A DNA stretch of 41,406 nucleotides from Omnitrophica bacterium GWA2_41_15. Lineage in GTDB: Bacteria > Omnitrophota > Gorgyraeia > Gygaellales > UBA12090. A program made the translations under genes and the position numbers. The DNA is taken from the NCBI GenBank assembly GCA_919901925.1, contig CAKKQA010000067.1, positions 1,212-42,617 of the forward strand. Reading direction: 5' to 3'. Below are positions 9,600 to 11,382 of the stretch, piece after piece (the stretch's first letter is position 1; each line of letters opens with the position of its first letter). The notes beneath the pieces were generated by a model that saw nothing but the letters and a program-made list of their open reading frames with translations, made no database searches and was not told where the DNA came from.

Positions 9600-9611
9600 G
9601 TATTAAAAGGC

Positions 9612-9635
9612 AGGGGACGGCAGCAACCGTCCCCT
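9612..9635. repeat. GGGGACGG/CCGTCCCC hairpin after rplQ
   Basis: Arms AGGGGACGG (9612-9620) and CCGTCCCCT (9627-9635) enclose a 6-nt loop. On the transcribed strand the hairpin is followed by GCCTTTT, so it could end ribosomal-operon transcripts weakly. Similar GGGGACGG elements occur at 19101-19128 and, degenerate, at 23185-23214, which argues for a repeat family. Confidence 0.7.
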
Positions 9636-9639
9636 ACGC

Positions 9640-10233
9640 TTATAATGAATCTCTTTCTTTTTTAAAGAGCTTACGTAAATTGCCTAAAAACTTCTTTGGG
9701 GCTTGAGCTTTTTTATCAACAACTTTTGATTTTTCTTCTTTTGAGGCATGCGGTTTTTCTTCATCCGCACGCAGCTTTTCTTCTGTTTCTTTATCATGCT
9801 CATGATCGTGTTCATGCTCAAGATGGCCGTGTTCATCCGCGGCCTTTGCCTTCTTTGGCTTCTTTTCTTTAACCGCGCTTTTTTCGGTAAGTTCTAAAAT
9901 AGCCATCTGCGCGTCATCGCCGCGGCGCTTGCCTAATTTTATGACTCTTGTATATCCGCTTGAGCGATTTTCAAACAACCCGACTATCTCGCTGAATAAC
10001 CTGCTTACCAGTTTATGATCCTGAAGCACGCTAAATGCTTTCCTCTTAGATGATAAACTACCCTCTTTGGCCAGTGTAATCAACTGCTCGACAAGAGGGC
10101 TTGAAGCCTTTGCCCTTGCGTGGGTAGTCCTTATCGACTGATTGATTAAAAGCGCCCGGGCAAGAGAAATTATCGTAGCTTTTCTTAAAGAACTGAACCT
10201 GTCTAAACGATTAGTTTTTACGCTGTGTCTCAT
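9640..10233 (-). CDS. rplQ: 50S ribosomal protein L17 with His-rich C-terminal extension
   Basis: Residues 1-118 are a normal L17, starting MRHSVKTNRLDR and with the usual segment KLGKRRGDDAQMA. L17 surrounds the peptide exit tunnel on the large subunit. About 79 extra residues follow. First comes a Lys/Ala linker, then a cluster of six histidines alternating with acidic residues (133-147, His 135, 137, 140, 142, 144, 146). Next is a Glu/Lys-rich stretch, and finally a basic amphipathic tail (APKKFLGNLRKLFKK). The extension has no homology I recognise. A ribosome binding site (CAGGTG) precedes the ATG. It closes the alpha operon after rpoA. Confidence 0.95.
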   Translation of the reverse strand: MRHSVKTNRLDRFSSLRKATIISLARALLINQSIRTTHARAKASSPLVEQLITLAKEGSLSSKRKAFSVLQDHKLVSRLFSEIVGLFENRSSGYTRVIKLGKRRGDDAQMAILELTEKSAVKEKKPKKAKAADEHGHLEHEHDHEHDKETEEKLRADEEKPHASKEEKSKVVDKKAQAPKKFLGNLRKLFKKERDSL

Positions 10234-10389: not shown

Positions 10390-11382
10390 TTATTTGACCT
10401 TCAGCTTCTTTGAATCAATCGTAATCCCTAAATTTAACCCCATCGAAGCAAGCAGTTCTTTAATCTCGGTTAATGATTTCTTGCCGAAATTCCGGAAAGA
10501 CAACATCTCTTCTTCGGCAAGCTTCACTAAGTCCGCGATAATTTTAATGTTAGCTTCCCGCAAACAATTAGACGACCTGACTGATAACTCAAGCTCTGAA
10601 ATCGGCAAACGTAATTTCTCGTAGAGCGCGATTTCTTCGGGCTGCATCAACGGTTCCTCTTCCAGATTTTCTTCCGGCAGCTGCCCGAAATTCACAAAAA
10701 CATCCAAATGCCTCTGTAAAATATTTGAGGCGTATAAAAGCGCGTCTTTCGGTGACATTGCCCCGTTAGTCCAAATCTCCATGATAAGCCTGTCATAGTC
10801 TGTCTTTTGTCCGACGCGCGCGTTTTCCGTCGAGTAAGCAACCTTCGCTACAGGGCTGAAAATAGAATCTATAGCGATGACCCCGATAGGATGGTCTTCC
10901 CTTTTATTCTGTTCAGAACTAACGTATCCCCTGCCTCTGGATACTTCCAGCTCAAGCGAAAACTTCGCGTTACGGCTTAAAGTCGCTATGTGTAATTTAG
11001 GATTCACTACTTCTATGGTTTCATCAGTTTCTATATCGGCTGCTGTAACCTCGCCCTTTTCAGTCTTTTTTATAGTAATGACCTTGGGGCTTTTTGAAGT
11101 CGAACGCAATACCAGGTTTTTGATATTCAATACTATCTCTGTTACATCTTCGACCACACCGGGAATCGTGCTGAATTCATGCTGTACGCCGTCAATTTTT
11201 ATTGATGTTACCGCGGCGCCCTCTATAGAAGATAAAAGAACCCGTCTTAAAGGATTACCCAGAGTTACCCCATATCCCCTTTCAAAAGGTTCAGCGATAA
11301 ATTTGCCGTAAGTGTCCGTGTAGCTGGCTTCATCACAATCCAGCCTGCGCGGCATCTGAAAATCTCTCCATTTAATCCCCAT
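10390..11382 (-). CDS. rpoA: DNA-directed RNA polymerase alpha subunit
   Basis: The alpha subunit nucleates polymerase assembly and contacts upstream promoter DNA. Its N-terminal domain contains the assembly motif EPFERGYGVTLGNPLRRVLLSSIEG (about residues 31-55, quoted here in part as GVTLGNPLRRVLLSS). An acidic linker (LPEENLEEEPLMQPEE) follows, then the C-terminal domain with LELSVRSSNCL and FGKKSLTEIKELL. The length of 330 aa is standard. A strong ribosome binding site (AAGGAG) precedes the ATG. Gene order rpsD-rpoA-rplQ is the conserved alpha operon. The 153-bp gap before it holds a perfect hairpin. Confidence 0.98.
   Translation of the reverse strand: MGIKWRDFQMPRRLDCDEASYTDTYGKFIAEPFERGYGVTLGNPLRRVLLSSIEGAAVTSIKIDGVQHEFSTIPGVVEDVTEIVLNIKNLVLRSTSKSPKVITIKKTEKGEVTAADIETDETIEVVNPKLHIATLSRNAKFSLELEVSRGRGYVSSEQNKREDHPIGVIAIDSIFSPVAKVAYSTENARVGQKTDYDRLIMEIWTNGAMSPKDALLYASNILQRHLDVFVNFGQLPEENLEEEPLMQPEEIALYEKLRLPISELELSVRSSNCLREANIKIIADLVKLAEEEMLSFRNFGKKSLTEIKELLASMGLNLGITIDSKKLKVK

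Follow-up and report, generated by a model that had tools for sequence, protein, structure and literature searches.

A conserved amphipathic tip ends the C-terminal extension of ribosomal protein L17 in Omnitrophota and may act as a docking peptide

The ribosomal protein L17 (bL17) encoded in the window, by which we mean the whole stretch of 41,406 nucleotides of Omnitrophota DNA analysed here, carries a long C-terminal extension that ends in a short, basic amphipathic tip. Judging from sequence comparison, it is this tip, and not a run of histidines nearer the core, that selection keeps in the extension. Ribosomal protein tails are easily dismissed as low-complexity sequence; here the tip is kept across the phylum and, in the window's order, at a level above that of the core. 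As such, it would mark a site for docking on the ribosome that is specific to this lineage. The features concerned are the following.

9640-10233, minus strand: rplQ, encoding ribosomal protein bL17 of 197 residues, directly after rpoA; matched by Pfam PF01196 and TIGR00059.
9880-10233, minus strand: L17 core, residues 1-118; Pfam match at 23-115 and AlphaFold pLDDT.
9691-9879, minus strand: variable tether rich in Lys, Glu, Ala and Pro, residues 119-181; predicted disordered, with pLDDT of 38-48 in blocks covering residues 121-180.
9796-9831, minus strand: His/acid stretch HGHLEHEHDHEH, residues 135-146; sporadic, with no conservation.
9643-9690, minus strand: amphipathic tip FLGNLRKLFKKERDSL, residues 182-197; conserved by profile and by identity.
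9610-9637, minus strand: terminator-like hairpin of 12 pairs followed by CTTTT, just after rplQ; consensus match.

With respect to the gene itself, Pfam PF01196 matches residues 23-115 of the product with an E value of 4.6e-30 (104.8 bits, cut-off 27), TIGR00059 gives 114.3 bits (cut-off 70.05), and rplQ is the single L17 match in its own genome, which is 90.5% complete. It occupies the alpha-operon position, with rpoA (10390-11382) directly upstream on the same strand, and the frame 9640-10233 contains no internal stop, which bears out the absence of a frameshift claimed in the initial annotation. Also confirmed are the 79-residue extension described there (9640-9879, minus strand, residues 119-197 plus the stop codon) and its order of parts, running from a linker through a His/acid stretch with six His in twelve residues and a Glu/Lys segment to a basic amphipathic tail. 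The remark that base use in the extension resembles that of the rest of the gene holds for the linker (G+C 0.43 versus 0.44 in the core) and fails for the AT-rich tip (0.25). AlphaFold assigns the core a pLDDT of at least 90 across residues 21-110 (means over 10-residue blocks). Two MAGs of Candidatus Omnitrophota (L031 and L032) are the named records that match over the full 197 residues, with 47% identity in the best segment. As for the surroundings of rplQ, two terminator-like hairpins were found against 1.5 expected in shuffles, and the one at 9610-9637 lies ahead of a same-strand aminotransferase gene. Farther along, there is a direct overlap between the genes for S5 and L15 (16704-17607, minus strand); rpmD (uL30) usually lies between these two genes, and the overlap implies that it is absent at this place.

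The extension proved to be nearly phylum-wide. Of 58 relatives, 55 yielded an L17 match, as did 142 of 145 genomes spread across the phylum; the two sets overlap and amount to 169 genomes. The protein was readable in 168 of these, a fragment in G011 being left out. Four further sequences that run off contig ends (G003, G018, G140 and G148) were excluded, which gave 164 L17s with intact 3' ends, some of them (G006, G046 and G068) lacking the 5' end. With length counted from residue 116 and at least 40 residues taken as extended, 159 of the 164 are extended, and the named relatives among them are Candidatus Omnitrophota. The median length is 75 residues over all 164, with a range of 44-104 among the 159 extended and a value of 82 for the window L17. 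The remaining five, with 0-2 residues, are all five L17s of family f35 (labels f1-f44 denote kinship groups of the sampled genomes).

After a variable Lys/Glu linker, these extensions share a tip with the approximate consensus GFLxxLRx(F/I)(F/L)KK, which starts 13-25 residues before the C-terminus. Family-weighted frequencies along it are Gly 60%, Phe 71%, Leu 52%, two unassigned positions, Leu 63% or Ile 26%, Arg 62% or Lys 25%, one unassigned position, Phe 38% or Ile 27%, Phe 66% or Leu 27%, Lys 53% or Arg 24%, and Lys 44%. Recognition relied on a 13-position profile, seeded from a consensus written after inspecting the sequences, with the tested family left out of training and p values taken from 200 shuffles of the same extension; it superseded a regular expression that missed variant tips. 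By this leave-one-family-out procedure, the tip is detected in 145 of 159 extensions at p<=0.01 and in 150 at p<=0.05; the stricter threshold is reached by one or more members in 38 of 41 families. Shuffled extensions put through the same procedure gave 1 of 159 and 9 of 159 at the two thresholds. Short forms of the tip give weak scores (GIFKRFRRKS in f17, for example), and in five extended L17s (G112, G135, G154, G156 and G165) no tip can be made out by eye; one of the profile matches at p<=0.05, that in G112, looks spurious on inspection. The tip-less lineages are f35, part of f25 and G112. Taken together, the family without an extension, the five extended L17s without a recognisable tip and the weak variants indicate that the arm or its tip is dispensable in places.

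In terms of the histidines, the initial annotation had described a metal-binding-like His/acid stretch and suggested that the extension could bind metal. The densest His window of the window L17 is indeed HGHLEHEHDHEH, with six His in 12 residues, and the linkers of L088 (G088, f15) and L105 (G151, f30) contain comparable runs, with six and seven His per 12 residues. Across the 159 extensions, the maximum number of His per 12 residues is 0 in 83, 1 in 44, 2 in 22, 3 in 4, 4 in 3, 6 in 2 and 7 in 1, so that at least six His in 12 occur in only three extended L17s, one each in families f1, f15 and f30. Within f1, the window's own family, the best 12-residue windows of the seven members hold 6, 4, 4, 4, 2, 2 and 2 His, at positions that shift. 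Because His counts are low or nil in most of the phylum sample, we regard the run as a sporadic linker feature; on this sequence evidence, it is local drift of the linker, incidental to the arm. A metal-binding segment defined by conserved His positions was rejected, as the positions are not conserved among the 159 extensions. Metal binding by the His/acid stretch as the function of the extension, confined to this lineage, gains something from the similar runs in G088 and G151 but is very improbable, given the 83 extensions free of His and the thinning to 2-4 His elsewhere in the window's own family.

Conservation within the window's order places the constraint at the other end of the extension. 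The comparison covered the 48 order members, out of 52, whose sequences finish with DSL or DAL; G009, G016, G046 and G057 were left out. Mean pair identity is 0.74 over the tip (the last 16 residues) versus 0.60 over the aligned core (115 columns), and all 100 core windows, each 16 columns wide, fall short of the tip, the best reaching 0.70. With all 52 order members included and their ends unaligned, the corresponding values are 0.68 and 0.60. For the 16 residues preceding the tip, mean pair identity in the order is 0.42. Ratios of pN/pS follow the same ranking (0.19 for the tip, 0.49 for the 16 codons upstream of it and 0.36 for the aligned core), and, with synonymous sites near saturation, these values are rough and only their ranking is meaningful. 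The DNA sequences of the 48 tips are all different and encode 33 distinct peptides. Phe is present at positions -16 and -8 in all 48 and Gly at -13 in 47, while Asp at -3 and Leu at -1 show no variation because the set was picked by its DSL or DAL ending. It had been proposed that variable tails in close relatives would point to a neutral low-complexity extension. Such variability is what we found in the linker, including its histidines, and not in the tip. A functionless neutral tail would fit the linker, and low-complexity Lys/Ala/Glu tails do occur on L17s of other phyla; set against a tip that exceeds the core in conservation in the window's order and is present in 38 of 41 families, this explanation for the extension as a whole is scarcely credible.

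The tip is also amphipathic as judged by its helical moment. The best 12-residue moment within the last 30 residues exceeds that of shuffles at p<0.05 in 131 of 159 extensions and at p<0.01 in 46, versus 4 of 125 linker stretches at p<0.05, and the family median member passes at p<0.05 in 28 of 41 families. Aromatic residues (Phe, Tyr and Trp) occur at 0.073 per residue in the tails and 0.002 in the linkers. Medians over the 145 tips are 0.74 for moment, 0.48 for hydrophobicity and +3 for charge, with a moment of 0.81 for the window's own tip. A moment of at least 0.65 combined with a charge of at least +3 is seen in 125 of the 145 tips and in none of the 1120 windows elsewhere in FtsA (0/390), RNase E (0/490) and MinD (0/240). 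The AlphaFold model of the free window L17 shows no helix in the tip (pLDDT 50-55), which speaks against the reading proposed below, though the alignment behind that model comprised 13 sequences, three of them with the tip (only two besides the window's own).

Building from these observations, we propose that the L17 extension is a tethered docking peptide for which the membrane is the likeliest target, a reading that we favour tentatively and place a little short of an even chance. A flexible linker of tens of residues, variable, of low complexity and predicted to be disordered, would carry the tip near the C-terminus; on meeting its target, the tip would fold into a one-sided amphipathic helix, with the Phe/Leu/Ile face inserting into or packing on the target and the Arg/Lys face contacting acidic groups. 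Since L17 is located on the solvent side of the large subunit, close to the tunnel exit, the cytoplasmic membrane could lie within reach of the arm. FtsA and MinD are held at the membrane by C-terminal amphipathic helices, and in a similar manner the arm might keep translating ribosomes near the membrane surface and its insertion machinery. The basic amphipathic character of the tip favours a membrane surface, and the idea of the initial annotation that the tail might bind the membrane or a factor fits both this character and the finding of a conserved end on a nearly phylum-wide extension. Carried further, the proposal would give Omnitrophota ribosomes a built-in membrane anchor throughout the phylum, in which an amphipathic helix on the L17 arm acts with no need of a signal sequence or SRP; this bolder version is rather doubtful. 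If true, it would offer a built-in substitute for the targeting of individual nascent chains, and we know of no other bacteria with such a phylum-wide placement of ribosomes. With regard to the surroundings of L17, the excerpt of one study lists E. coli L17 among the exit-region proteins tested and reports that it was not cross-linked to the nascent chain in question (PMC8556260), and the excerpt of another names only uL22, uL23, uL24 and uL29 around the exit (PMC5071890).

The sequence of the tip also holds hints of a more specific target. Arg outnumbers Lys at position 7 by 115 to 22 among the 145 tips, while the linkers of the 159 extensions contain 1911 Lys versus 124 Arg; together with the invariant Phe residues, this fixed Arg suggests a specific protein or rRNA pocket over generic lipid binding. 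The tip may thus be a protein-docking motif that recruits one soluble or membrane-bound partner to the tunnel exit, for example the SRP receptor, SecA, trigger factor, a nuclease or a hibernation factor. The position-specific invariance of Phe -16, Phe -8 and Gly -13 in the order, the preference for Arg amid Lys-rich linkers and the lack of another clear tip bearer among 67 genomes would all suit such a partner. The ending D(S/A)L, however, is not phylum-wide, and a trigger factor match occurs in 137 of 141 genomes, whether or not they bear the tip, so that the presence of this candidate alone does not explain the tip. On balance, we consider protein docking possible, if on the unlikely side.

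These 137 matches also led us to reject the idea that the tip makes up for an absent trigger factor. The window's own genome encodes trigger factor outside the window (G000:C74:9916-10314). Among the matches listed, the protein is short in the window's order and in several other families, mostly about 290-350 residues with some of up to 437, and the short forms match positions of roughly 1-140 and 232 onward of a 410-position profile; other families show a full-length match. The part of the profile left unmatched is the place of the PPIase domain, which thus appears to be missing. A truncated trigger factor is described for plant chloroplasts in the excerpt of PMC11731035.

A further alternative is that the tip folds back and clamps rRNA or another ribosomal protein of the same ribosome. 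Many ribosomal protein tails clamp the ribosome itself, and RNA is also bound by basic amphipathic peptides; the net positive charge of the tip and its fixed Arg are in keeping with such a role, as is the fact that a ribosomal protein carries it. A clamp would have no need of a long extension of variable length with a poorly conserved linker, and the aromatic/aliphatic face would seem to exceed what simple RNA binding requires. We therefore judge a clamp unlikely, and less probable than a docking partner.

Whichever target is envisaged, the tip appears to be peculiar to L17. Searched in 40 relatives, a first tip profile (A1) matched 37, always best in L17 and at E<=6.8e-4, with no place outside L17 below E 0.027. 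A second (A2), searched in 27 f32 genomes, matched 26 at E<=1.5e-5, in 25 cases at the L17 locus, with no other place below E 0.012; the match in G148 lies on a different contig from its cut-off L17. Both profiles were built partly from the same genomes in which they were searched. With these two profiles, we saw no sign of the tip as a general tag of several proteins, and no other clear bearer emerged in the 67 genomes. For comparison, we sampled four other phyla, taking the best 20-30 loci per search (matching genomes 57/59, 50/51, 58/59 and 54/58); of the 110 loci, 109 L17s were read and 56 tails were long enough for the test. At least 40 residues follow the core in 25 of the 109, and none of the 56 tested tails from these best-scoring loci bears the tip near its C-terminus, one sequence (L336, misread as part of rpoA) being included in both counts. 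One control tail, L265, reached a profile p of 0.005, yet the match lacks the pattern and lies 95 residues from the C-terminus. Long L17 tails are thus common and the tip is not, as far as sampled. In two other L17s from these phyla, L268 and L311, we observed short basic ends containing Phe (KKKGFFGRGKKK and RRGLFGRRK), which score weakly against the tip profile.

With respect to known systems, the bacteria of the tip-bearing phylum are known mainly from metagenomes, and the titles and opening lines of abstracts on bL17 tails and on Omnitrophota, with few subscription papers among them, contain no description of such an L17 tip. The extended bL17 proteins of solved structures (160-199 residues; 5o60, 5v7q, 8crx and 7jil, presumably from Actinobacteria and Bacteroidota) likewise combine a core with a C-terminal low-complexity extension. 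Searches of solved structures gave no PDB match at E<=1 for profile A1 and one, at E 0.57, for A2. The L17 sunset domain variant of NCBIfam, NF051448, is likewise an L17 with an added C-terminal part; membership of the window L17 was rejected at 126.6 bits against a cut-off of 280, the match covering residues 5-181 and leaving the tip outside.

Closer parallels to the tip are found among membrane-binding segments and docking tips. FtsA, MinD and RNase E each have an amphipathic segment with a membrane function, and a short basic amphipathic stretch is what they have in common with the tip, which alone sits on a ribosomal protein and carries a fixed Arg. The membrane helix of E. coli FtsA (moment 0.84, hydrophobicity 0.46, charge +4) lies near the tip medians. 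The internal helix of RNase E (0.65, 0.66 and +2) falls below the charge threshold and is unlike the tips, as is the C-terminal helix of MinD (0.48, 0.16 and +2), which is below the combined moment-and-charge threshold; E. coli MinD, used as a positive yardstick, also fails the helical-moment shuffle test (p 0.36). In terms of overall architecture, SSB and FtsZ bear conserved C-terminal docking tips on disordered linkers of their own, and the L17 arm resembles them in its layout of core, variable linker and short tip, while differing in tip sequence and partner.
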